Positions 4,628-39,249 of a stretch of 41,631 nt of DNA are shown here, piece after piece. This stretch comes from a virus. The stretch spans positions 1-41,631 of IMG/VR virus record IMGVR_UViG_3300017917_003029; one strand, given 5' to 3'. Each line of letters opens with the position of its first letter. Positions within the stretch are counted from its first letter, which is position 1. A model generated the notes under the pieces. The model had not been told where the DNA came from. It was given only the letters and a program-made list of their open reading frames with translations, and did no database searches. A program made the position numbers and the translations under genes.

Positions 4628-6758
4628 TTTATTCGCCATTTCTAATCTGTCTGAACAGTCCGTTATACGATGTGAACCATGGTGTAAACCGAATGTAGAT
4701 TACTCTAGGTTTGCAAATAAAGAGATTTTTAGGAAGTGGTGTGTTGATAAATCAACTAATCACATATTTTATTCTGCATATGAGGGACTAGGGTCAAACA
4801 TTCGAATAAGTCAAAATAACCCGCCGGTAAGAATGTATGGTTTAGTTGTGGATTATGACGCAACTTTTGAGGGAGAACCTTTTATTCAGATCGCAAAAGT
4901 AGTTTCAAATCATCTTCTCCCCACACGCTATTCTAAAACATTTTCAAATCATCTGAGGGTTGTTTGGTTATTCGAAGAACCTATATTCTTTTACAACATT
5001 GAGGTTCACAATCGATTTATAGAGCGGTTAACGAGAGAGTTAAAACTAAAGAAATTATTCCCTGGCCTTGATGAACCAGCACTTAAGGAGTACGCAAAAT
5101 ACTATGAGTTGGGAAACTCATGGGTAAAAGTATCTGACAATGTTATCTCTAAACACGTGTTATCACGCTGGATTGAAGATGCGAGTCAGAAAATTCAATG
5201 GGCAAAACCTTCAGAGAAAATACCAATTGAAACATTACGTGCAGAAGGAGAGAAACAATTCCCTGGAAGATGGCCAGGAGGTTGGGAGTATTTTGATTAT
5301 GGGGTAAGAGGAGTACGATTCTGGGAACCCGATGCCGATGCTCTTGCAGTGATTATAAGAGAGTCAGGATGTCAGTGTTTCACAGGCGACAAACCATTTT
5401 TATCCTGGGGTGAGATCTTCGGGAATTCGTTCGTTCAAAGTTTTGCGGACTCAAAGATAGGATTGGCAATTGAAAATATCTGGTTTGATTCAACAAATTA
5501 CTGGCGAAAACCAAAAGATACGTGGCAAAAATTTTCAAAGGGCGATGTTGAAAACCATCTAAGAACTTCCAAGGGTTTAAGTTTTATTAGAAAAAACTCA
5601 CCTAGTGAAATTGATTACGCGATTGAACAAATTCACAACCAACAAAGTGTTGCGGAGGCCTTTCCTTTCCTTTATCGAAAAGACGGGATTGTGTACTATA
5701 ATGGCGTGAGATACCTCAATATCTCAACTATTCAACCTTTAAAACCCGTGGAAACAGAAGTTCAATGGGGTGAAGGCTTTCCTTGGCTTTCTCAATATTT
5801 TGACAGTCTCTTTGACCCCTTTGAACAAAAAGAATTTTTCTTATCTTGGCTATCTCATTTTTATAAGGGTGCTCTCAATAAACAATTAGAACGTGGGTTA
5901 GCTTTGTTTTTGGCTGGTCCCGTAGGAGTTGGGAAAACATTTATTAGTAATATCATTATTGGGAAGCTCATGGGGAGTCGTCAGGATGCTGCAAATTATT
6001 TAACCGGCAATGACACTTTCAATTCAGCAATTTTTAGTTCAGCTGTTTGGACAGTTGATGACGCCGTCCTCTCCGGTTGGTCAGCAAAAGAGAAATTTTC
6101 ACAAATCATCAAACGAGTTATTGCTAACGATTCATTTACCTACCGAGCGATGTACCGCGCTGGGTTTAATATGGACTGGATAGGTCGTGTCATTATTACA
6201 ATGAATGATGACCCTGAGAGTCTTCAAATGCTTCCCCAAACTGAGATCAATATATTAGATAAGATTTTACTTATTAAAGTTAAACGACACTGTTTTTTTG
6301 GTGGTGGATGGCCTTCAGAAAAACAAATCGACCAAGAATTACCTTACTTTGCGGCGTATTTACGAGATTACAAGATCCCTCCTCAATGTGTGGGAAGTTC
6401 GCGGTTTACAATCCAACCCTACCAACATCCTGATTTGTTGGAAGCCGCGCGTTCTACGAGTTCAACCGCATCGTTTGAAGAACTCCTTAATCAATGGCAA
6501 GAGAGTTACTTTAAAGTAAAAGGTCGTGATTTCTGGGAAGGTACTCCTACCGATCTTTTGAGAGAGCTTTTGAGAGATGAATCCATAAAACCGATCGTCG
6601 ACAAAAACTACAACTCTGTAAACAATCTTACAATACACCTAAATAAACTCATTAAATTTTCTCAAGGAGGCGTTCAATCCATTGATCATTCAGGGAGACG
6701 ACTCTTTAGAATAACACCCAACCAAACCGAAACTTATGAAAAAAGAAATATCATTTGA
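4620..6758 (+). CDS. Primase-helicase (AEP-like primase plus SF3-type helicase)
   Basis: 712 aa. The N-terminal part has GLVVDYDA (D78, D80), a DxD pair like that of archaeo-eukaryotic primases, followed by HLRVVWLFE. The C-terminal half is a helicase/ATPase: Walker A GPVGVGKT at 433-440, Walker B-like VWTVDDA at 476-482 and the sensor-like VIITMNDD. This matches phage DUF5906/D5-type replicative primase-helicases, which prime and unwind at the fork. The last 75 residues (from W639) form a small domain that is duplicated as a free-standing protein at 32205-32504. The last 23 bases overlap the next gene. Confidence 0.85.
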   Translation: MSNLFAISNLSEQSVIRCEPWCKPNVDYSRFANKEIFRKWCVDKSTNHIFYSAYEGLGSNIRISQNNPPVRMYGLVVDYDATFEGEPFIQIAKVVSNHLLPTRYSKTFSNHLRVVWLFEEPIFFYNIEVHNRFIERLTRELKLKKLFPGLDEPALKEYAKYYELGNSWVKVSDNVISKHVLSRWIEDASQKIQWAKPSEKIPIETLRAEGEKQFPGRWPGGWEYFDYGVRGVRFWEPDADALAVIIRESGCQCFTGDKPFLSWGEIFGNSFVQSFADSKIGLAIENIWFDSTNYWRKPKDTWQKFSKGDVENHLRTSKGLSFIRKNSPSEIDYAIEQIHNQQSVAEAFPFLYRKDGIVYYNGVRYLNISTIQPLKPVETEVQWGEGFPWLSQYFDSLFDPFEQKEFFLSWLSHFYKGALNKQLERGLALFLAGPVGVGKTFISNIIIGKLMGSRQDAANYLTGNDTFNSAIFSSAVWTVDDAVLSGWSAKEKFSQIIKRVIANDSFTYRAMYRAGFNMDWIGRVIITMNDDPESLQMLPQTEINILDKILLIKVKRHCFFGGGWPSEKQIDQELPYFAAYLRDYKIPPQCVGSSRFTIQPYQHPDLLEAARSTSSTASFEELLNQWQESYFKVKGRDFWEGTPTDLLRELLRDESIKPIVDKNYNSVNNLTIHLNKLIKFSQGGVQSIDHSGRRLFRITPNQTETYEKRNII

Positions 6759-17639: not shown

Positions 17640-18496
17640 TTATACTCTCGCGTGTCCTCGACTCATCCAACGTTCAATGAGTTTGTTACGTTGTTCTTCA
17701 GTCGTTTTGATTTCGGGCTCTTTAAATTCTTCCCATGTTTTTTGTTCTGGAAGTTTTTCTAAATCAAGATGCGGCGTTCTCGCATCTTGTAGAACCGTGT
17801 TGAATTTGCGAATGTGAATTGCCCTTAAAAGATAGTGAGATTGTTCAAGTGTGAGATCAAGAATAGTGTCAAGATCCCAGCCATACTCACTCGCTATAAG
17901 GTCAATGACTTGCGTCCATGAAAGGACTTCTTTATCCCTACGAGAACTCGTTTTAGGAGAGGAGGATTTTTTTTTTCGCTATCAAAAGATCCTTGCAAAG
18001 CCTGACTCAGTGCATGAACAAGATTTGCGCGATTGATCATAGCTTGCCCATAATCCTCATCATCAAGAATCAAGCGTTCAAGTCTTTGATATCCGTTTAA
18101 ATTATCTGTTTGGAGAACTCCGTTATGGTCTCTCCAAGGTTTCACAGGTATTTTAAAAAGATATTCTTTTGATCGTTCAGTTAAAAATAAAAATACTAAC
18201 TCACAAAGATTTTTAAAACCTTCTTCATCATAGGCTTCAAAAACTTTTGAAAAGGAATACAACCCCTTAAACTTTTCTCGAAGTTCGTCATTCGTGGCGG
18301 TATTCGCCATCTGTAAAAGCTCCTTAGAGCCTTTAGCCAAAAGACTTAAATCCATGTCATGAATCTTAAATTTATTCTCTAAGAAAAAATGAACACGATG
18401 TGTCAATGGCTTAAGCTCTAAGGTAACTCCCACGCCGTGGCAAATAAGATCTACTTGCCACGTGCGGCTATTAAAAACAAGAGTTTCAGATAACAT
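17640..18496 (-). CDS. Tail assembly chaperone, -1 frameshift product
   Basis: A 285-aa product is predicted if the ribosome slips -1 on the ten-A run at 17976-17967. The zero frame gives 176 codons before the slip; the -1 frame then stays open for about 109 codons to TAA at 17642-17640, ending two bases before the tape-measure ATG. The extension contains EVLSWTQVIDLIASEYGWDL and a basic tail, with no start codon and RBS of its own near the slip. This is the conserved G/GT-type arrangement, in which the minor fusion binds the tape measure. The slippery run and the open frame are seen directly; efficiency is unknown. Confidence 0.8.
17894..18496 (-). CDS. Tail assembly chaperone, zero-frame product
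   Basis: 200 aa, acidic helical protein between the major tail protein and the tape measure, the place of the gpG-like chaperone. It helps tail tube proteins polymerise around the tape measure and is not part of the virion. The last 24 codons lie after the slippery run and would be replaced in the frameshifted form. The start at 18496 is three bases from the stop of the major tail protein. Confidence 0.75.
   Translation of the reverse strand: MLSETLVFNSRTWQVDLICHGVGVTLELKPLTHRVHFFLENKFKIHDMDLSLLAKGSKELLQMANTATNDELREKFKGLYSFSKVFEAYDEEGFKNLCELVFLFLTERSKEYLFKIPVKPWRDHNGVLQTDNLNGYQRLERLILDDEDYGQAMINRANLVHALSQALQGSFDSEKKNPPLLKRVLVGIKKSFHGRKSLTL
17967..17976 (-). promoter_or_regulatory. Programmed -1 ribosomal frameshift site (A10 run)
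   Basis: On the minus strand the codons GAA AAA AAA AAT contain ten consecutive A residues, which permit re-pairing in the -1 frame. The -1 frame downstream is open for over 100 codons and the zero frame stops 24 codons later. Polymerase slippage in the run could give the same product, or the run could be an assembly length error, but the position matches the tail-chaperone rule. Confidence 0.75.
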
Positions 18497-18498
18497 GT

Positions 18499-19392
18499 TT
18501 AGTCAATGTAAGTCATTTCCCAAACACCGTCTCTAACGGCGTCATACGATGCGGTCATTTGAAGTTCAGACTCAGAGAATGCAAGAGCTTCAAAGTTAAT
18601 ATTAACGCCAGGTGCAGAGCATTTGTAAACACGCACAATAACGTTTCTACCTGAGCTTTGCTGAGTTCCATAAATATCAACCATGAAGTCGGTATAGACT
18701 TCAGAAGATTTTCCTAAAATCGTTGCATAAGAACCTAAATTAATACGTCGTGTTTTAAAGGTCGCGGTATCTCCAGTTGTTAAAGCAATCGTTCCAGATC
18801 CTCCAGTAAATTCAACACCCGTAGTTTCGCCATTCGCATTTAAAACAGGGGTAGCAGTTGACGCTGTAACAGTTAAAGGAGTTGGGTTGACAAGGCCTCC
18901 GTAGCCTAAAGAATCGTAATCACTTGCATACCAGCCTGAAGGGAGACCAGTTGCATAAAAATTGACTGTGGTTGCAGAGACCGCGCGAATTGTCCAGTAA
19001 CTATTACGAAGTTTACTTTCTTCTCCGGAATCAATTTGCACAGTCGCAATCCCTGTGGAGCCTACTACAGTTGTGCCATTTTTATCAATAAGTCCACCAA
19101 CATAACCAGTAGGTTCAGCTGACTGTGTGGTTACGAGAGATCCTGCAAGAGGCTCCCACATCCCGCGTTCAAACTGACTCGTATTAAACGAGATCATGTC
19201 TTCACGTTTACCAGGTTCCGATTGAATAACTCCGCGGAAAGATCCTTTTGTTTCTAACTTAATAGTGTCGATTTTAGATTCAACGGAAGCTTCTCCAGGG
19301 ATTTTAAAAATCACATAAGGGAGTTCAGTTGTCCTATTTAAAAATGCAACAGTATCGATACCGAAAACTGCACGAGGTTGAGTTAAAGCCAT
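18499..19392 (-). CDS. Major tail protein
   Basis: 297 aa, beta-rich with a Thr/Ser/Gly-rich insert around 160-210 that may be an Ig-like or surface domain. It lies between the tail terminator candidate and the tail chaperone, the normal position of the tube subunit. A strong AGAAAGGAA ribosome binding site precedes TAATTATATGG; the capsid gene uses nearly the same leader, consistent with very high expression. No enzymatic motif. Confidence 0.75.
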   Translation of the reverse strand: MALTQPRAVFGIDTVAFLNRTTELPYVIFKIPGEASVESKIDTIKLETKGSFRGVIQSEPGKREDMISFNTSQFERGMWEPLAGSLVTTQSAEPTGYVGGLIDKNGTTVVGSTGIATVQIDSGEESKLRNSYWTIRAVSATTVNFYATGLPSGWYASDYDSLGYGGLVNPTPLTVTASTATPVLNANGETTGVEFTGGSGTIALTTGDTATFKTRRINLGSYATILGKSSEVYTDFMVDIYGTQQSSGRNVIVRVYKCSAPGVNINFEALAFSESELQMTASYDAVRDGVWEMTYID

Positions 19393-26337: not shown

Positions 26338-28809
26338 TTATCCTACCCATTGAGCAGAATTCAAAACTTGCTCTTGTGTAAAGCCTTCAATGGCACTAGG
26401 AGTAAGGCCTCTAGGGTCTAGCTTATACTTACTATTCTTGTTTGCTGATAATGTGATAGGAGCAATAAACGAGTTACAATGCCAATGTAAGGGAGGCAAA
26501 TAAGGAGATAGTGCAAACTCTTCTTTAGAAAAGATACGACCTGCAAGAGATCTGCAGATTGCTGTTTTAGGATTAGGGTTGATAAACTGATAGTATTCAA
26601 TGAGCGCATCGACCTCGGGAGTTACAAATACGTCGTTACGCATGAGATTGATAACAGTTGATACCGCGCTTTCTGCAAGTGTAGGCATCTTTGTTTTAAA
26701 CACTCCCTCGTATGCAGCCGTGATGTCAGCTAGGATCTGTGACAATGAGTCAGTTGCGTTTGAACGTGTTTGAAGTGCAAAAAATACAGCTTTATGGATA
26801 GCGTCATCTAACTCTTGAGTCATGAGTCCAACCTGATTAATAATTGAAGCAGTTTGATCATTATCAAGATTCGATACGTAAGAAGCTGGCGATGTTTTCG
26901 CGCGTCGAGAGATCGCTTTCAAAGGAAGTCCAACTTCATCATAAACTTGCGCCACGGCATCATCTGCGAGTTTGCCCATAAATTCAGAGAGAACTACCTT
27001 GAGATCATTAATCTTAGGCAACGCCAGATCTCCACTTAGATACTGTTTGATAGCGAGTTGCGCGCCCTTACTCACACCTTCAACTTCTATCAACTTCTCG
27101 ATCTTAGCGAGTAATTGAGTCACCCTTTCCTTTTGGATCGCCGTAAGCTTATTCGCAAGACTATCTGAAGCATCGTTAATCAGTTTGTAAGTAGGATACT
27201 TAGCAGCCGCCGTTTGTCTCTCTTGGGCAGTCCACACGCCACAATCAGGATCACTACAACCCTTATAATTGCTTAATAGTCGATTAGACCTCGTATAACT
27301 TTGTTGAACAATGGGGGGCGGTTGTTGTGGTGTAACATTCCTCATAGGAGGAATTTGAGAAATTGGTGCGGTTTGCCCTGGAGGCCTTATGGATGGCTGG
27401 ATAGGGGTGACGGGTAAACCTTGTGGCACCATGGGACTTCCAATAACGGGTTGTAAAGATTGTTCAACGGCTGTTACATAATCAGGCAATTCAAACATGG
27501 TGTGCACATAATCTTTAACCCGATCATCTACTTGAATTAGCCCCGCCCCCGAAAGTGTCACGAGAACCTGTGCTTCACTCAACATATCCCGCCCTACAAT
27601 CCCACCAACCGTAATCTTAGGATACTTGAGTTGTTTTCCAAACTTGGCGTTAACAAGTGGTATCACTACACGTTGATTGAAAACATCAAGTACATTTCTA
27701 GGGTAGGATTCAATCGCGCGATAGAAATCGCGTGACGCATCCTCGCGTGCGGATCGTGATCCACCTGCAATCAAGTCTTTAGAAGAAAACGTTGCACCGA
27801 AGGCTTTATCTATTTCTCCGTCGAGATATTGAAGAATTCTAACGTTTGCATCCTTGTCACCATCAATTTTGAATTGATCAATCTCATACCCCTTTGGCTT
27901 GACAAGCCCGTTAATACGGCCTTTCAAGTCAGTGAACTGCATGACAATTTGTTTTGCAACTTCAATCTGCTCATCACTATTGTCATTGGCGTCAATGCCT
28001 GAAGGTATTGTAATAACCGGTACACCTAACGATCGGTGTCCTAGTTTCTGAGTTGCGCGCAAGAAGTCTTGTTTAATTTGCCAAGCACCATAACAACTTC
28101 GTAATACGGAGAGACCTTCCCAGTCAGCACCGATTTTTTCATTGACAAGAACCATGAGTGTCCACCCTGGAATCTCAATCGTAGAGCGACTTGGGGTTAG
28201 ATCTCCTGTGTCGAGTTGTTCAATATAATCAATACTCCCATCTTTTTCTAAATGGTATTTCTCAAAGGTTCGAGGGTCACGATAAGAGATATCTTTTATT
28301 CCTATAAAGTTTCCCCAGATAGGATCGGCTCCGTAGTACTTAAAAATGGTCTCAAATGGCGCATTGCCATCGGTCAATAGACAATAACAGGATTCAAAGA
28401 TAAACTGGTCAAACCCTGAGTTTGTCATGGGGTCTTTCCATAACTCAAAAACTACATACTCAATAAACTCTTTTATCTTTTGATCTTGTGGCGTGTCACT
28501 AGCAGATTCAACTTGATACGTCGCAGTCTTAATCGGGTCAATAATTCCCTTGATATTTTTGCGAATGTTCGCGTCACTCCTTACCATCGCATCGGCAATC
28601 GGGTACCACTCTTGACCACGAATAGAGATGATCTTCTCAATCTCATAAGTCCCTGAATTGATGGGGGTTCCGATGGAACCAATAGGTAAATAATGTTGTG
28701 GAGTTGTCTTTCTTTTTTCAACGATAAAAGGATCTGGCTCCTCATCTTCCTTGCTCGCCTTGAAATATTTTAAGACGGTATTCGTTGCTCGTTGAAGGTA
28801 AGAAGCCAT
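26338..28809 (-). CDS. Portal protein fused to a MuF head-morphogenesis domain
   Basis: 823 aa from ATG 28809 (an in-frame TTG 27 bases upstream lies in the conserved hairpin). The N-terminal about 480 residues resemble Mu gp29/DUF935-type portals (GAWQIKQDFLRATQKLGHR, ITIPSG). After a Pro-rich linker (TPQQPPPIVQQ) the last about 270 residues are MuF-like: helical region, then the ending CRSLAGRIF...LPPLHWHCNS, with the conserved His/Cys pair. Portal forms the dodecameric DNA gate; MuF domains enter the capsid. The two are usually separate genes; the fusion is less common. Confidence 0.8.
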   Translation of the reverse strand: MASYLQRATNTVLKYFKASKEDEEPDPFIVEKRKTTPQHYLPIGSIGTPINSGTYEIEKIISIRGQEWYPIADAMVRSDANIRKNIKGIIDPIKTATYQVESASDTPQDQKIKEFIEYVVFELWKDPMTNSGFDQFIFESCYCLLTDGNAPFETIFKYYGADPIWGNFIGIKDISYRDPRTFEKYHLEKDGSIDYIEQLDTGDLTPSRSTIEIPGWTLMVLVNEKIGADWEGLSVLRSCYGAWQIKQDFLRATQKLGHRSLGVPVITIPSGIDANDNSDEQIEVAKQIVMQFTDLKGRINGLVKPKGYEIDQFKIDGDKDANVRILQYLDGEIDKAFGATFSSKDLIAGGSRSAREDASRDFYRAIESYPRNVLDVFNQRVVIPLVNAKFGKQLKYPKITVGGIVGRDMLSEAQVLVTLSGAGLIQVDDRVKDYVHTMFELPDYVTAVEQSLQPVIGSPMVPQGLPVTPIQPSIRPPGQTAPISQIPPMRNVTPQQPPPIVQQSYTRSNRLLSNYKGCSDPDCGVWTAQERQTAAAKYPTYKLINDASDSLANKLTAIQKERVTQLLAKIEKLIEVEGVSKGAQLAIKQYLSGDLALPKINDLKVVLSEFMGKLADDAVAQVYDEVGLPLKAISRRAKTSPASYVSNLDNDQTASIINQVGLMTQELDDAIHKAVFFALQTRSNATDSLSQILADITAAYEGVFKTKMPTLAESAVSTVINLMRNDVFVTPEVDALIEYYQFINPNPKTAICRSLAGRIFSKEEFALSPYLPPLHWHCNSFIAPITLSANKNSKYKLDPRGLTPSAIEGFTQEQVLNSAQWVG

Positions 28810-28813
28810 AATC

Positions 28814-28845
28814 CTTGAGTGCTTTTTATTTTTCAAAAAGTCAAG
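28814..28845 (-). promoter_or_regulatory. Bulged RNA hairpin before portal start
   Basis: On the minus strand CTTGA-CTTTTT pairs with AAAAAG-TCAAG around a 7-nt loop (GAAAAAT), with a CAC bulge on the 3' side. It occupies the whole 36-bp gap between the TerL stop and the portal ATG and its 3' arm runs into the AAGGA Shine-Dalgarno. Its twin precedes the protease gene, 2.6 kb away. A translational operator or leader element is the best explanation. Confidence 0.72.
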
Positions 28846-30099
28846 TTAATAAACAGCCAATGAGTTGTTGTCACTAAATAAAAATTTCTTTGTCAGATTG
28901 CCAACAACTGGCCGTGAGAAGAGTGCGTAACTCGCGAGTGCAAGAGCACACACACAGTCGTCGTGAAGTCCATCGGGCGCGCTATACTTCGTGCCATTTG
29001 CAGTATCCTTGTACTCGAAACACTCAAGCTCATCTACAATCGGGCCTTCAGGGTAAGCAATCTTTTCCCCAGAGATCGCGAGTGCTAGCCCTTCCATGAG
29101 CATCTGTTTTGATGTCGACGTAAACTTATACCCTTCGATATTATCTCTCCCACGCTGCAGGGTATCAAGTATCACATCCCCTATCCCCGTGGAGTCTACA
29201 AGAGTTTTTGTATCCCTAACCTCTCGTATAACGAAATCTACGGTTTCTTTCCAAGGTTTTTGGAATCGATGGAACCTACAAACATATCCTCTGCTATCGA
29301 GTGCTATCCCCACAGTCCAATCAATAGACCTCCCAAAGTCCCAACCCCATACGACTGCGGAGCTAGAAGAGATAGGCTTAATACAATCTCGAATCGCTCG
29401 AATGCCAAAAGGATTACCGCCATCTTCAGCAGGTTCACAAAAATAGAGTTCTTTAAAGAAAGACTCTCTACCCTTAAACAGCTTCTCAGCATCATCAATC
29501 TCGCTTTGATTCAGTACTCCAGCCGCCACGGCATCACGTGCCGTAATACAATGATATTCCATCCCCTCCTCACCATTCTTAGCTCGCACGCCAAGCTTAT
29601 ACGCCCAGTTATTACGACCTCTCACGTTACCTATAATCCTTGCGGGGCCTTGAGTTGCAGTCAACGTAGAGCGAACAGCAAAGAATGCTTCTTCACGCAC
29701 ACGTGAGGCTTCATCAATCACAACCGCTTGCACATCTTCCCCATATAACGAGTCCGGCTTTTCACCCGATTTAAAAAAGATTACAGCATCGTTATGCTTT
29801 AGTGTTAGCTTTAATTCGCTCTCGTTAATAGCCCAGAAGCTGCTAGGGAGTGATCGCTTCATGCGATTGAATGCAATCTTAGCTTGCGAATAAACAGGAG
29901 CTACCCACCAAAATACACCTTGCTTCACAGAAGTTTGTGAAAACTTCAAAGCCTTCTCAAGCAGCCAGATCAAAGCCGCTGAAGTCTTTCCAGCTTTGGT
30001 GGACGCCTCAATAACACTAATACGCGAATCGTTATAAAATGCGTTATACTGCTTTGGGTAAAGGTAAGGCCTTTGAATGTCAAGTTTCTTTTCGATCAT
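28846..30099 (-). CDS. Terminase large subunit
   Basis: 417 aa from ATG 30099, which overlaps the small-subunit end by 20 bases. ATPase: Walker A-like ASTKAGKTS (32-40) and Walker B VVIDEAS (126-132). Nuclease (RNase H fold): D254 in WGWDFGRS, D302/D308 in LVDSTGIGD, and D380/D381 in GLHDD. All catalytic acids are visible. It packages DNA into the prohead and cuts the concatemer with the small subunit. The variant Walker A lysine context is common for phage terminases. Confidence 0.93.
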   Translation of the reverse strand: MIEKKLDIQRPYLYPKQYNAFYNDSRISVIEASTKAGKTSAALIWLLEKALKFSQTSVKQGVFWWVAPVYSQAKIAFNRMKRSLPSSFWAINESELKLTLKHNDAVIFFKSGEKPDSLYGEDVQAVVIDEASRVREEAFFAVRSTLTATQGPARIIGNVRGRNNWAYKLGVRAKNGEEGMEYHCITARDAVAAGVLNQSEIDDAEKLFKGRESFFKELYFCEPAEDGGNPFGIRAIRDCIKPISSSSAVVWGWDFGRSIDWTVGIALDSRGYVCRFHRFQKPWKETVDFVIREVRDTKTLVDSTGIGDVILDTLQRGRDNIEGYKFTSTSKQMLMEGLALAISGEKIAYPEGPIVDELECFEYKDTANGTKYSAPDGLHDDCVCALALASYALFSRPVVGNLTKKFLFSDNNSLAVY

Positions 30100-30499
30100 C
30101 ACCAAATATATTTATCTTGACTATTTCGTTAGGTTGTGAATTGCTTTCTTTCACACGCTGCTTAAACTCTGCATATGCACCCGTTAAACGGGCGAGTTGC
30201 TCAATCGCATCTAATCCTACCTTTCGATCGCGCCATGTCTTAACGCCCCTCGCTTCACGTAAAATTTCATCTGCATGTTTAATAAGGTAGTCGGCGTCAA
30301 TGTCATATTTTTCCTGGCGTTTAGCCAGTCGTTCGTCGATGTATTTTTTAATTCCTTTATTTTCCAACAACTCGTAACTTCTACCTTTAGCATAAGCATC
30401 TGAGTATCCTGCACTCAGTGCTGCTTGGTATGCATTGCTTGTTTTTACGTACTCATCCGCAAATTTTTTTTGTTGAGGTGTTAATTGCTTTTCTGCCAT
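30080..30499 (-). CDS. Terminase small subunit
   Basis: 139 aa from ATG 30499. An 18-residue hydrophobic upstream extension in the same frame (30553-30500) is unlike terminase and overlaps the -10 candidate, so it is rejected. The protein starts AEKQLTPQQKKFADEYVK...NAYQAALSAGYS, the helix-turn-helix Terminase_2 pattern (LT.qQ..F..eY....n...A...AGYS), followed by a helical oligomerisation region. It recognises the packaging site, which may lie in the structured region just upstream. Confidence 0.9.
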   Translation of the reverse strand: MAEKQLTPQQKKFADEYVKTSNAYQAALSAGYSDAYAKGRSYELLENKGIKKYIDERLAKRQEKYDIDADYLIKHADEILREARGVKTWRDRKVGLDAIEQLARLTGAYAEFKQRVKESNSQPNEIVKINIFGDDRKET

Positions 30500-30542
30500 T
30501 TGTTCAGAAGTCAAGCAGAAAAATAAAAAAATGTCAAATAAA

Positions 30543-30548
30543 ATTATA
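30543..30548 (-). promoter_or_regulatory. Consensus -10 box upstream of terminase
   Basis: Minus-strand TATAAT is an exact sigma-70 -10, 44 bases before ATG 30499. No good -35 lies 16-18 bases upstream; that space is occupied by the right arm of a 15-bp inverted repeat (30549-30609), which may be an activator or operator site. This fits a phage late promoter that needs a phage-encoded factor. Confidence 0.5.
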
Positions 30549-30609
30549 GGCAACCTGTCTATTTACCCCGGTAACTATTCGGAGTTTCTCGAGGAATAAA
30601 CAGGTTGCC
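30549..30609. repeat. 15-bp inverted repeat with GGCAACCTGT arms
   Basis: GGCAACCTGT (30549-30558) and ACAGGTTGCC (30600-30609) are exact inverted copies and extend to 15 bp with one difference. Read as RNA the difference is a C-A mismatch on the plus strand but a G-U pair on the minus strand. Related CAGGTTGCC copies occur at 30643-30651 and AGGTTGCC at 30867-30874. It adjoins the terminase -10 box. Confidence 0.75.
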
Positions 30610-31002
30610 GTCGCCTTAAGGTACTAGCTTAATGGGAGATAAGCAGGTTGCCTGATTCCTTGCATCCTGATAGGACGCTATCATCGTCATTGACTACTGC
30701 AAGGGTTTTTGGACACCACTTGCCTTTTAGGGAGAGGCAAGAAACCCTTGGCAAGTAAACAAGCTTTCGCCCTTTTACTCTTAACGTCCATGAAGTCCGT
30801 TTAGCCACAACATGGGAGGTCAACCCCACAGTTACAACCATTTGTAGGTAGCTCCATAATCAATCTAGGTTGCCTCTAGAAATCATTTTGCTACTCTTTC
30901 GGCTATCTGGATATGGTTGGAACCAGAAAGTGCACCATACGGTGCCATTTTCGCCGTCAAACAACTATTTTAGATTTTCCAAAATATGCCGATTGTTTGA
31001 AG
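30549..31002 (-). ncRNA. Candidate structured RNA or long 5' leader of the late operon
   Basis: About 450 bp of non-coding DNA, near 47% GC by hand count over 30601-30960, bordered by about 21% GC over 31021-31320. Helices seen include 30549-30563/30595-30609, 30658-30664/30698-30704 enclosing TGATAG/CTATCA (30668-30683), 30700-30708/30742-30750, 30719-30725/30735-30741, 30833-30837/30842-30846, TCTAG/CTAGA (30864-30880), GCACC/GGTGC (30932-30945) and 30957-30964/30993-31000. Two helices need G-U pairs only on the minus strand, and a GAAA loop appears there, so minus is favoured but not proven. Two helices share 30700-30704 and exclude each other. No known family (GOLLD, ROOL, group I intron, tmRNA) could be assigned by eye. 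Confidence 0.6.
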
Positions 31003-31008
31003 CAGATT

Positions 31009-31037
31009 AAAGTACCAAATTATTTTTAAAAAATCAA
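31009..31037 (-). promoter_or_regulatory. Candidate promoter for the structured leader RNA
   Basis: Minus-strand TTGATT (31037-31032) and TACTTT (31014-31009) with a 17-bp spacer. The transcript would start within a few bases of the outermost helix at 31000, matching the edge of the GC-rich block. The -10 matches the consensus at only three of six positions, so the call is weak. Confidence 0.35.
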
Positions 31038-31103
31038 CTTCATATTTTTAATTTTTTAACTTTACAAACAACTAGAAAAGAGTAATTTAGGTTTAATCAA
31101 TTC

Positions 31104-31119
31104 ATTCGATTTTTCGAAT
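31104..31119 (+). terminator. Weak terminator-like hairpin
   Basis: ATTCGA and TCGAAT form a 6-bp stem around TTTT, followed on the plus strand by CGTTCTTTTTTA and ten T residues. It would stop rightward transcripts entering from the terminase side, or end a rightward RNA from the GC-rich block if that RNA were on the plus strand. The stem has only two G-C pairs. Confidence 0.35.
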
Positions 31120-31163
31120 CGTTCTTTTTTATTTTTTTTTTAATGGCAACAGTCCATATTTTT

Positions 31164-31180
31164 AAAAGTGTAACACTTTT
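31164..31180. promoter_or_regulatory. 17-bp palindrome, operator-like
   Basis: AAAAGTGT-A-ACACTTTT is an exact palindrome. A related half-site GTTACACTTTTTTTTC lies at 38956, also upstream of a ribbon-helix-helix-like gene (39055). This could be the binding site of one of those proteins, but the match is short and in AT-rich DNA. Confidence 0.4.
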
Positions 31181-31460
31181 TCTTTCTTTCTCCTGTTTAA
31201 TTTTAAACTTCTTACCCTGATACTATTTTATTTTTTTTATTTTTATTTTTTCTCATAAGCATAGGAAGTTTAAAAAAAATAAAAGAAATAAATACAAAAT
31301 GTTAGTCTTGCCTATCTTTCTTAAACATTTGATTTTAAAATACTTAACTGCTCTTTTGATAAAAGTATAAAATTTGACTTTTTAGTAGTCTTCTGCATAA
31401 AAATACAAAATTAGTGTTTGCACTATCTCTTTGGCTCCTCCCAAATACTCTAAAAACATG

Positions 31461-31489
31461 TTGACAACTAGGATATCTTTTGGTAAAAA
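31461..31489 (+). promoter_or_regulatory. Promoter for the 31500-32504 cluster
   Basis: TTGACA (31461-31466) and TAAAAA (31484-31489) with a 17-bp spacer. The predicted start of transcription is about four bases before ATG 31500, so the mRNA would be leaderless or very short-led. A second, weaker pair TTGACT (31374) and TAAAAA (31398) lies upstream and would give a normal leader. Confidence 0.55.
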
Positions 31490-31499
31490 ACCTTCCCTT

Positions 31500-31742
31500 A
31501 TGAGTAACATAACTGACCAAAAATCGACAAAAACACAAAAAACATATCACTTTGCAATGCCAGACAATGTCATAACGGCATTACGTAATCGTGCAAAAAT
31601 TAACCATAGAACAACCACAGGAGAGCTATTGTCTATACTTGAATTTTCTCTTCAAGATGAGCTTCAGCGAGAGTTGATTGCTGAAACTGCAGGTGAAAAA
31701 CCCATGACTAAACCATTAACTACAGATGTTTGGAGAGACTAA
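31500..31742 (+). CDS. Ribbon-helix-helix-like regulator
   Basis: 80 aa from ATG 31500; an upstream in-frame start lies in the promoter and is rejected. The middle reads KTYHFAMPDNVITALRNRAK...RTTTGELLSILEFSL: a short strand followed by two helices, the layout of small Arc/MetJ (RHH) DNA-binding proteins. It would bind DNA as a dimer. The end overlaps the next start (TAATG). Target unknown; the upstream palindrome is a candidate. Confidence 0.6.
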   Translation: MSNITDQKSTKTQKTYHFAMPDNVITALRNRAKINHRTTTGELLSILEFSLQDELQRELIAETAGEKPMTKPLTTDVWRD

Positions 31743-33065: not shown

Positions 33066-33686
33066 TTACTTTCTGATAATTTCTGAAAACTCTTTGACCG
33101 CACGATCATGTAAATTGCCTGCACTGTCAAGAGATTCTTTGGTGTATAGTCGATATTTTTGAGTGCTTTCAATGGGTTGTGCACCAACAATACCCCATGA
33201 ACTTAAAGTATTCCCAAAAATATTGACATCTCGTTGGACTGCACTAAACGCCATCGATTCAAAGTAGTATTCTCCCTTGTCATCGACCCCAATTGGTACA
33301 ATTTGATGTTGACTATACATTAACCCCACAGTTGATACGATGACATTTTTAGACTTAATCTGGAGTAGTGTGCGCACATTAAACAGACAATTATCGTTGT
33401 GGCCAAAACCAAGGGAGAGAGTGCGAATGGGGAAAAGATTGATGATTGATCGTTTAACGGGTACGTCGACGGCTAATTTATACCCCTGAAGATCACAAAA
33501 TTTCTCGATTTCTTGGATTGACATTCTTCCGAGGTTACGGATCGTGTGGAGTTGTTTCTTTGTGTAAAGGAGGAGACTATTAAGAGTATTGATTTCCGCA
33601 TTTTTAAGGGCATTCCAAGTTCTTGTCGATAGATGTCCCTGGTCGTATAACTCTTCCAGGGGAGTATTAATGGGGTAAGATTTCAT
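33066..33686 (-). CDS. Protein with an RNA polymerase alpha C-terminal-like domain
   Basis: 206 aa from ATG 33686; an in-frame TTG 15 bases upstream is possible. Residues about 18-72 copy the bacterial alpha-CTD: LSTRTWNALKNAEINTLNSL then IRNLGRMSIQEIE. R22 and N25 correspond to E. coli R265 and N268, the UP-element contacts, and the NLG.xS turn is kept. The remaining 130 residues are unrelated to RNA polymerase. It could bind promoters or be contacted by host activators and redirect transcription. Such domains occur in other phages but the role here is unknown. Confidence 0.7.
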   Translation of the reverse strand: MKSYPINTPLEELYDQGHLSTRTWNALKNAEINTLNSLLLYTKKQLHTIRNLGRMSIQEIEKFCDLQGYKLAVDVPVKRSIINLFPIRTLSLGFGHNDNCLFNVRTLLQIKSKNVIVSTVGLMYSQHQIVPIGVDDKGEYYFESMAFSAVQRDVNIFGNTLSSWGIVGAQPIESTQKYRLYTKESLDSAGNLHDRAVKEFSEIIRK

Positions 33687-33731
33687 TGGTTTTTTAAACA
33701 AGGTGTAATTTCAAAAGTTTCTTCTCGTCGA

Positions 33732-37764: not shown

Positions 37765-38883
37765 ATGAAAAAAAACATCCTGATTACGAATATGCACAAA
37801 GCCCGTGGGGGAGGGCACACAACCTTCATCAAACAACTCTTAACGAGTAAGTTATTGAGGAGTCAATTTAACTTTGCGGTGTCCGCGCCTGAAGGTTGTC
37901 TTTTGGAATCAATCTGTAAGTTCCTCGACGTTCCATTTTATCCTTGCCCTTATGATTCTAAAATAGGACGCCCTATAAAAATGGTAAAAGAGATCTTGAG
38001 AGTTCGTGAGATTTTTAACGAGTTTAAACCCGATCTGATTCATTGTAACGGGAGTCCAGACATGACCGCCTGGAGGTTTGGTACTCTTGATAAACAAGTC
38101 CCCATGATGAGAGTCCAACACGCCGTTAAACGAATTAAAACGAATTTATACACCCGTTGGTTTTTTGAAAAAATAAACGTTGTGTACGTTTCATATGCGT
38201 CCAGGGATTACGCCTTTAACATGGGGTCGATGAGACCAAAGTATCAAGATGTAATTGAATTAGGGGTTGACACTGAGTATTTCTCCCCACGAGAAAAAGA
38301 TTTGGAACTCACAAATAAATTGAACATTTTGCCTACTGATTTTGTCGTGGGTACCGCGGCGGGGATGGCGAAACAAAAACGAGTTGATCTAATGATTGAA
38401 GCGATCGGTATCGTTCGAAGATATTCCACGACCCCCATCAAATTGTTGATTCTTGGGGATGAACATAATTGGCCTCGACTACGTGAACACGCCAAAAAAC
38501 ATGGTGTTGAAGACATTGTAATCTATCCTGGTCATCAATCAGATATACGCCCTTGTGTGTCTTTATTTGACGTTGGATTCATGATTAGTGACTCTGTGGA
38601 GACTCTCTCGTATGCAACTCGTGAGATGATGAGTATGGGAATTCCCGTTATATCCTCCGATTATCCAGGGATTCCAAACAATGTAGACCATGGGGTCAAT
38701 GGGTTAAAAGTTCACTGGGGTCAAGTTGCGCCTGTGGTTGCAGCCATTATGATTTTTTTAAATATGTCACCCGAAACCTTGAACTCCATGAAAATGGCGG
38801 CTCGTAACAAATCTGTTACTAAATTTTCACTTAATGAGCAATTACTATCTTACGAACGTCTCTATAAAAAGCTAATAAAGTAA
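37765..38883 (+). CDS. Glycosyltransferase, GT4-like (GT-B fold)
   Basis: 372 aa from ATG 37765 (an in-frame GTG at 37711 is inside the promoter). N-terminal GGGHTTFIKQLL is a GT-B Gly-rich loop; the C-terminal half has GTAAGMAKQKRVDLMIEA, then ETLSYATREMMSMGIPVISS, the donor-binding E-x7-E-like pattern of family 4, and NNVDHGVNGLKV. It would transfer sugar from a nucleotide sugar. As a single gene with its own promoter, operator and terminator, it looks like a cargo gene for host-envelope modification or DNA-base glycosylation; the sequence does not say which. Confidence 0.82.
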   Translation: MKKNILITNMHKARGGGHTTFIKQLLTSKLLRSQFNFAVSAPEGCLLESICKFLDVPFYPCPYDSKIGRPIKMVKEILRVREIFNEFKPDLIHCNGSPDMTAWRFGTLDKQVPMMRVQHAVKRIKTNLYTRWFFEKINVVYVSYASRDYAFNMGSMRPKYQDVIELGVDTEYFSPREKDLELTNKLNILPTDFVVGTAAGMAKQKRVDLMIEAIGIVRRYSTTPIKLLILGDEHNWPRLREHAKKHGVEDIVIYPGHQSDIRPCVSLFDVGFMISDSVETLSYATREMMSMGIPVISSDYPGIPNNVDHGVNGLKVHWGQVAPVVAAIMIFLNMSPETLNSMKMAARNKSVTKFSLNEQLLSYERLYKKLIK

Positions 38884-38912
38884 TTATCACTAAATAAAAA
38901 TTATTTTAGCAG

Positions 38913-38956
38913 AAATCCTATATTTCTCAAGGGATTGAGAGGTATAGGATTTTTTG
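38913..38956 (+). terminator. Rho-independent terminator of the glycosyltransferase gene
   Basis: AAATCCTATA (38913-38922) pairs with TATAGGATTT (38943-38952), enclosing TCTCAA/TTGAGA around GGGA; the stem is followed by T residues to 38955. A long, two-part stem with a GNRA loop and a T-run is a convincing terminator 30 bases after the stop. Confidence 0.88.
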
Positions 38957-38972
38957 TTACACTTTTTTTTCT

Positions 38973-39000
38973 TTGAATTTTTTATTAATGTTAATAGGAT
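38973..39000 (+). promoter_or_regulatory. Candidate promoter of the rightward early operon
   Basis: TTGAAT (38973-38978) and TAGGAT (38995-39000) with a 16-bp spacer, upstream of ATG 39055. GTTACACTTTTTTTTC (38956) lies just before the -35 and resembles half of the palindrome at 31164. A weak second pair (TTGCAT) is also present. The operon it serves runs to 9154 over the contig join. Confidence 0.4.
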
Positions 39001-39054
39001 TTGCATCGTTAAATTTACGTTACAAAAATTTAATACAACTTAAACAAAAAATCT

Positions 39055-39249
39055 ATGGATGATAAAAAATACAAGTACGAGTACGCGATGTTTCGAGGGT
39101 CAAAAAATGCCCACGAGGTTTTAAAATTCCTCTCAAAAAGAGACGGCATACGATTTCATAAGTTAGTAGATATTGCAGTTCAGCTTTTAGCGGAACAACG
39201 GGGTGTTGATTTTTATAAATTTATGGAGGCGGCGACTCATGAAGCTTAA
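39055..39249 (+). CDS. RHH-like regulator, first gene of the early operon
   Basis: 64 aa. AHEVLKFLSKRDGIRFHKLVDIAVQLLAE matches the N-terminal domain of the 31742 protein (HTELIILSRETGIPIHKLLSEI), giving the strand-helix-helix outline of an RHH fold. No Shine-Dalgarno is seen. As the first gene of the replication operon it is a good candidate for an autoregulator. The stop overlaps the next start. Confidence 0.6.
   Translation: MDDKKYKYEYAMFRGSKNAHEVLKFLSKRDGIRFHKLVDIAVQLLAEQRGVDFYKFMEAATHEA

Follow-up and report, generated by a model that had tools for sequence, protein, structure and literature searches.

A structured minus-strand block at the head of the packaging operon

The window, i.e. 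the whole stretch of DNA analysed, comprises the 41,631 bases of a virus record and encodes a DNA polymerase A, a portal protein, a tape measure protein and a packaging cluster on the minus strand. In this cluster the gene terS (30080..30499, PF03592, Pfam E = 9.2e-22, codon score 0.364), with a likely ATG start at 30499, is directly followed on the same strand by terL (28846..30105, Pfam PF03237 and PF04466) and then by the portal gene (26338-28836). The block under study (30549-31002) ends 50 nt ahead of the terS start. The nearest relatives of terL, at 53-56% identity, come from viral contigs and from genomes with the labels Planctomycetota, Alphaproteobacteria and Bacteroidota; no counterpart of the block accompanied the terminase relatives in these contigs and genomes, those examined showed no comparable gap before terS, and in 11 viral contigs with terminase relatives neither of the two RNA domains described below was found. 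Elsewhere in the window, the ORF at 33066-33701 (minus strand) encodes an RNA polymerase alpha-subunit C-terminal domain (PF03118), which is unusual for a phage.

In line with the sequence-only reading, which had estimated a GC step from about 47% to about 21%, the GC fraction was 0.467 in 30550-30849 and 0.20 in 31000-31299. A 471-nt RNA covering the block gave a fold z-score of -5.2 for the minus strand and -3.2 for the plus strand, and none of the shuffles folded as well on either strand. The genome was scanned in windows of 455 nt and also of 300 nt, and in the 455-nt scan the block ranked about fifth of 364 windows (z -5.4). Since the regions 18013-18695 and 38761-39215 fold as well as the block or better, folding strength alone would not single it out. 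The strongest RNA fold of the record (18241-18695, minus strand, z about -6.5) contains a stem, CGCACGUGGCAA/UUGCCACGGCGUG, close to the start of the ORF 17894-18496, and the second strongly folding region (38761-39215, both strands) lies largely in the gap past a glycosyltransferase gene. The content of long inverted repeats in the block exceeded that of 199 of 200 shuffles.

The only ORF of some length within the block (30629-30841, minus strand) had a codon score of -0.115, whereas the scores of 15 small genes from this genome ranged from +0.13 to +0.44 and those of wrong frames averaged -0.43; the ORF had no PHROG match. A protein-coding block was ruled out by the codon score together with the absence of a PHROG family match. 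That the block encodes a structured, noncoding RNA on the minus strand, as had been proposed from the sequence, is well supported with respect to structure; what the RNA does we infer below. No Rfam family was reached in the block at gathering level, the suggested Rfam search yielding two matches, to DUF3800-IX and wcaG, that are recognisable below it. A tRNA and tmRNA search of the block found none, and blastn of the whole block against phages returned just a 34-nt piece of phage S-CAM1 and chance matches. As the searches gave no relative of the block as a whole, eight of its ten domains, all but the two matched ones, are predicted from folding energy.

About ten stem-loops, where at least nine helices had been drawn from the sequence, could be placed in the block as a row of small domains in the order H1, junction, H3, H4, H5a, H5b, pseudoknot, H6 and 3' repeat part. 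The first domain, the 5' hairpin H1 (30958..30999, CAAACAA...UUGUUUG), has a folding energy of -10.2 kcal/mol both alone and in the full fold. It is followed by a three-way junction (30900..30957) and by the predicted hairpins H3 (30848..30894, -13.6 kcal/mol, closing pairs GUAGC/GCUAC, apical part GGCAACCUA), H4 (30803..30847, which includes UGGGG..UCCCA), H5a (30783-30801) and H5b (30751-30780), the last of which carries a GCGAAAGC loop, so that the minus-strand tetraloop noticed earlier is indeed present. An H-type pseudoknot (30716..30748) and the small hairpin H6 (30669..30682, GAUAG-CGUC-CUAUC) precede the 3' repeat part; all these features are on the minus strand. Neither a promoter nor a terminator for the block RNA was identified: the promoter proposed at 31009..31037 (minus strand; TTGATT, 17 nt, TACTTT) has 7 of 12 consensus bases and is a weak candidate read from the sequence, and the promoter scan yielded no site on the minus strand. 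Further upstream, the gap that separates the late operon from a divergent Arc-like DNA-binding protein gene (31431-31742) contains a perfect 17-bp palindrome, AAAAGTGTAACACTTTT (31164-31180), which is a possible operator.

Large structured RNAs of the GOLLD (RF02032) and ROOL kind, likewise found in phages or prophages, had been put forward as a comparison, and an ornate, nanocage-like RNA of this kind would agree with the size, phage origin and late position of the block. In one other viral contig (L050, 6454-7814) a tmRNA gene is followed directly by a sequence with the pattern of the pseudoknot and then, all within 1.4 kb, by a tRNA and a GOLLD domain, which places the pseudoknot pattern between tmRNA and GOLLD. 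However, no covariance-model match to GOLLD or ROOL was obtained up to E = 10 in 30300-31300, and the block is a linear string of small consecutive domains with no long-range closing helix in its predicted fold, not one large branched fold; we therefore regard membership of this group as very improbable. A further phage contig (L047, from 663-1008 onwards) has a permuted tmRNA of the cyanobacterial type (tag ANKIVAFSRSKVATLV, ARAGORN) and more than 20 tRNA genes. The packaging RNA of phage phi29 is likewise structured, has a three-way junction and is located near packaging functions. A phi29-type pRNA was rejected, there being no match to any Rfam packaging RNA; compared with the phi29 RNA the block is much longer and has no sequence match, and a packaging role for it would be hypothetical.

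A DUF3800-IX-like junction and its viral relatives

In a permissive Rfam search, DUF3800-IX (RF02968) ranked first, matching 30956-30900 of the minus strand with 26.8 bits (E = 0.0033). A covariance model trained on 16 viral DUF3800-IX loci, from which the window had been excluded, matched 30964-30889 (minus strand) with 32.1 bits (E = 2.9e-6), the runner-up reaching 9.2 bits. The isolated 60 nt fold exactly into a three-way junction (-18.4 kcal/mol) with the stems P1 (CGGC/GCCG), P2 (GCACC-GUAU-GGUGC) and P3 (UCUGG/CCAGA). In the 16 viral relatives P1 and P3 are made of other letters and the pairing is retained, and the window has every letter that is invariant in the viral alignment (CGAA, G.C.CCGUAUGG.G, C.U.C and UA). 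A search with the shared-letter pattern found 20 viral loci, and 16 of the 18 records tested scored above the Rfam cut-off for DUF3800-IX; as the pattern was built with letters of the window, it favours loci that resemble the window in the core, and the stems P1 and P3, which it left free, are unaffected by this bias. Fifteen pattern loci with a non-A base in the GUAU loop were all at chance level in the model search, which indicates that the A in this loop is truly invariant. A blast search with the DUF3800-IX consensus against named phages returned nothing useful.

The window shares with DUF3800-IX RNAs the P1, P2, P3 junction and the conserved core letters, and with L132, L138, L142 and L146 the GGC subtype of P2. 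It differs from them in one extra nucleotide before P2 (J1 of 3 nt instead of 2), in a 12-nt P3 loop, in a P1 of just 4 bp, and in that the junction is embedded in a 450-nt RNA on a contig in which no gene for a DUF3800 protein was found. As its 26.8 bits lie below the Rfam gathering score of 36.8 and the neighbouring gene is missing, the domain is filed as a diverged DUF3800-IX relative only; judged by its sequence, 30900-30957 (minus strand) is such a relative.

A DUF3800 protein gene was present in 3 of the 18 viral records with DUF3800-IX, many of these records being partial. In these three bona fide loci (L132, L133 and L145) the RNA adjoins the gene, at a distance of about 65 nt from the 3' end in two of them, and the candidate defence model PDC-M04A of PADLOC is matched by the DUF3800 proteins of L132 (E = 4.6e-5) and L133 (E = 2.2e-13). 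Among the contigs with nameable neighbours, DUF3800-IX was located on the strand of head or packaging genes in six. In L139, DUF3800-IX and DUF3800-VIII lie side by side (5800-6318) directly before the major capsid protein gene, in a structured gap of about 500 nt (fold z -3.4), the best parallel to the block of the window. In L142 the RNA precedes a terS-like gene upstream of a terL-like gene, both recognised by reading and neither with a Pfam match; its block has a fold z-score of 0, so that L142 supports the position and not a large fold. DUF3800-IX is also found before a terL-portal pair (L144), just after terL (L134), before a terL fragment and portal (L137) and after portal and minor capsid genes (L140), the remaining neighbours being an integrase, tail, RecT, RtcB, exonuclease or sigma-factor gene. 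By plain count, the RNA lies near head genes in 6 of the roughly 15 contigs that have no DUF3800 gene, a modest enrichment. Two DUF3800-IX matches (L147, 4648-4676; L149, 901-927) are situated within long inverted repeats whose appearance (CACGAAG.. / CACAGAGGG.. type) suggests mobile or REP-like elements.

The DUF3800 protein is reported to have an RNase H fold and a link to noncoding RNAs in a study that also devotes a section to biomimicry (PMC10910872). Together with the PADLOC matches, these RNA partners and the RNase H fold make titration of a host protein a reasonable rival explanation: the block would be a decoy, a DUF3800 system reduced to its RNA half, made late in many copies that occupy an anti-phage DUF3800 protein of the host. 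The three contigs with the RNA beside the gene agree with such a system, as does the lack of a DUF3800 gene in the window and in 15 of the 18 viral records with the RNA, and mimicry of RNAs by phages is known for CRISPR. The host target is, however, hypothetical, and defence by DUF3800 proteins is a candidate function; a decoy would need just 60 nt, whereas the junction is one of about ten domains, and many of the viral records are partial. Overall, we consider a decoy unlikely.

A wcaG-type pseudoknot and competing pairings

The second recognisable domain, at 30716-30748 of the minus strand (AGGG UUU CUUGCC UCU CCCU AAAA GGCAAG UGG), forms an H-type pseudoknot of the wcaG/manA kind with S1 AGGG/CCCU and S2 CUUGCC/GGCAAG, followed by UGG. 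It matched the Rfam family wcaG (RF01761) with 24.2 bits, below the gathering score of 42 (E = 0.042 in the search with all families, 4.2e-4 over the entire contig), and 34 nt here are 91% identical to phage S-CAM1 (blastn E = 0.05). The pattern GGTTTCTTGC..GCAAGTGG was found at at least 119 viral loci, nearly all of them module arrays, and wcaG exceeded the Rfam cut-off somewhere in 7 of 8 sampled pattern loci; a pattern specific to the pseudoknot of the window had no match in the viral contigs. When S1 was fitted to the modules' own loops in 176 modules, a mean of 3.16 bp was obtained, compared with 2.14 bp after shuffling (sd 0.11).

wcaG RNAs and the cyanophage pseudoknot arrays resemble the pseudoknot in the order GGUUUC, S2 stem, CC, A-rich loop, S2 stem and GUGG, and the S1 pairing is common to them and the window. 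Unlike the cyanophage arrays, the window has one module and no tandem array ending in a terminator, and unlike both groups it has no adjoining sugar or photosynthesis genes. wcaG RNAs are located in the 5' UTRs of exopolysaccharide or high-light genes (PMC2864571), whereas the pseudoknot of the window belongs to a terminase operon. From the sequence, it likely shares ancestry with wcaG, but so short a module could also have arisen by convergence.

The window also differs from wcaG in that S1 has an alternative partner. Its strand can instead join a 9-bp helix, CAAGGGUUU/AAACCCUUG (30700-30708 / 30742-30750), which closes an alternative minus-strand hairpin around S2 (30700..30750, inverted repeat I8, -18.0 kcal/mol) and excludes S1 of the pseudoknot. 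The competition for 30700-30704 that the sequence-only reading had pointed out is thus real, the second strand of this helix also forming S1. A further alternative minus-strand pairing (I1, 30831-30852 / 30902-30923) would join the 3' neighbour strand of H4 to the P3 region of the junction.

The two recognisable domains come from unrelated families and occur apart elsewhere, and we found no relative with the same combination, which would suit a chance accumulation of hairpins and mobile RNA cassettes that share an intergenic gap and have no joint function. Against this, intergenic space is costly for a phage, both domains retain their strand, which is that of terS, terL and portal, and their core letters, and the entire 455 nt fold unusually well; such an accumulation seems improbable to us.

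The 3' repeats and the reading of the block as a late-operon RNA

The 3' part of the block contains GGCAACCUG in two forward copies and one inverted copy. The inverted copy can pair with one forward copy or the other (15 nt at 93% or 20 nt at 80%), and these compete for it as their single partner. A GGCAACCUGCUUAU copy that carries two small hairpins lies on the minus strand (30628..30654, repeats D2 and D3, inverted repeat I3) and is followed by a 3' hairpin (30549..30609, inverted repeat I4) consisting of a 15-bp helix, GGCAACCUGUUUAUU / AAUAGACAGGUUGCC, an internal stem and then UAUAAUUUUAUUU. The strands of this helix (30549-30563 / 30595-30609) form 14 of 15 Watson-Crick pairs, and its single mismatch turns into G-U on the minus strand, as anticipated. 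The motif GGCAACCTR occurs five times in the genome, 0.5 copies being expected, and four of the copies are within the block. Among 24 loci with a three-element GGCAACC/GGTTGCC pattern, none had a match to the RNA model and none was similar in the sequence shown.

Such repeats could also act as DNA. If the GGCAACCTG repeats before terS were TerS-binding sites (cosB or pac), the RNA folds would be a by-product of inverted repeats. Four of the five genomic GGCAACCTR copies fall within 326 bp directly upstream of terS, a 14-nt direct repeat has a 43-bp spacing, and in lambda the terminase sites occupy the equivalent place. Packaging sites would nevertheless cover no more than 30549-30654 and the single copy at 30866, and they leave the DUF3800-IX and wcaG matches as well as the stronger fold of the minus strand unexplained. 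The contig is continuous through the block and broken elsewhere, inside a gene, so that there is no sign of a cos end at the block. We judge it improbable that packaging sites account for the block.

Since the block heads the terS-terL-portal operon, it can be read as a long 5' leader of this operon or as an RNA cut from it, and its position fits a late leader. We think it probable, though far from certain, that the block specifies a multi-domain RNA of about 450 nt at the start of the terS-terL-portal operon, either a leader or a cut-off noncoding RNA, that may switch form and contain a protein-binding junction. In this reading, a minus-strand noncoding RNA of about 450 nt, in which about ten small domains that fold autonomously follow one another, would be made together with the late genes and would either stay as the terS leader or be released as a separate RNA. 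The two exclusive pairings would let the leader change form during its synthesis, which may tune late transcription or the translation of terS. DUF3800-IX RNAs are thought to bind protein, and the junction domain would do so in the same manner; we know of no function assigned to these RNAs. The single modules are already known, and their combination in the block is, to our knowledge, apparently new: in a comparison that left aside the 2017 DUF3800-motif paper, we know of no description of this domain combination, its length, its position before terS or the missing DUF3800 gene.

More speculatively, and with only a minor share of our confidence, phages may have adopted the RNA of defence-like DUF3800 systems, without the protein, into long multi-domain RNAs of their head and packaging operons, as a decoy or a packaging part, in which case the block would belong to an undescribed class that includes L139 and L142. 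In viral contigs DUF3800-IX mostly occurs without its namesake protein and repeatedly beside terminase, portal or capsid genes, and in one case it shares a long leader with DUF3800-VIII. This shifts the question of DUF3800-IX from bacteria to the late genes of phages and makes it a testable one whether the RNA binds a DUF3800 protein of the host or serves the phage alone. The block also indicates that large phage RNAs can arise from reusable modules that are common to unrelated phages.
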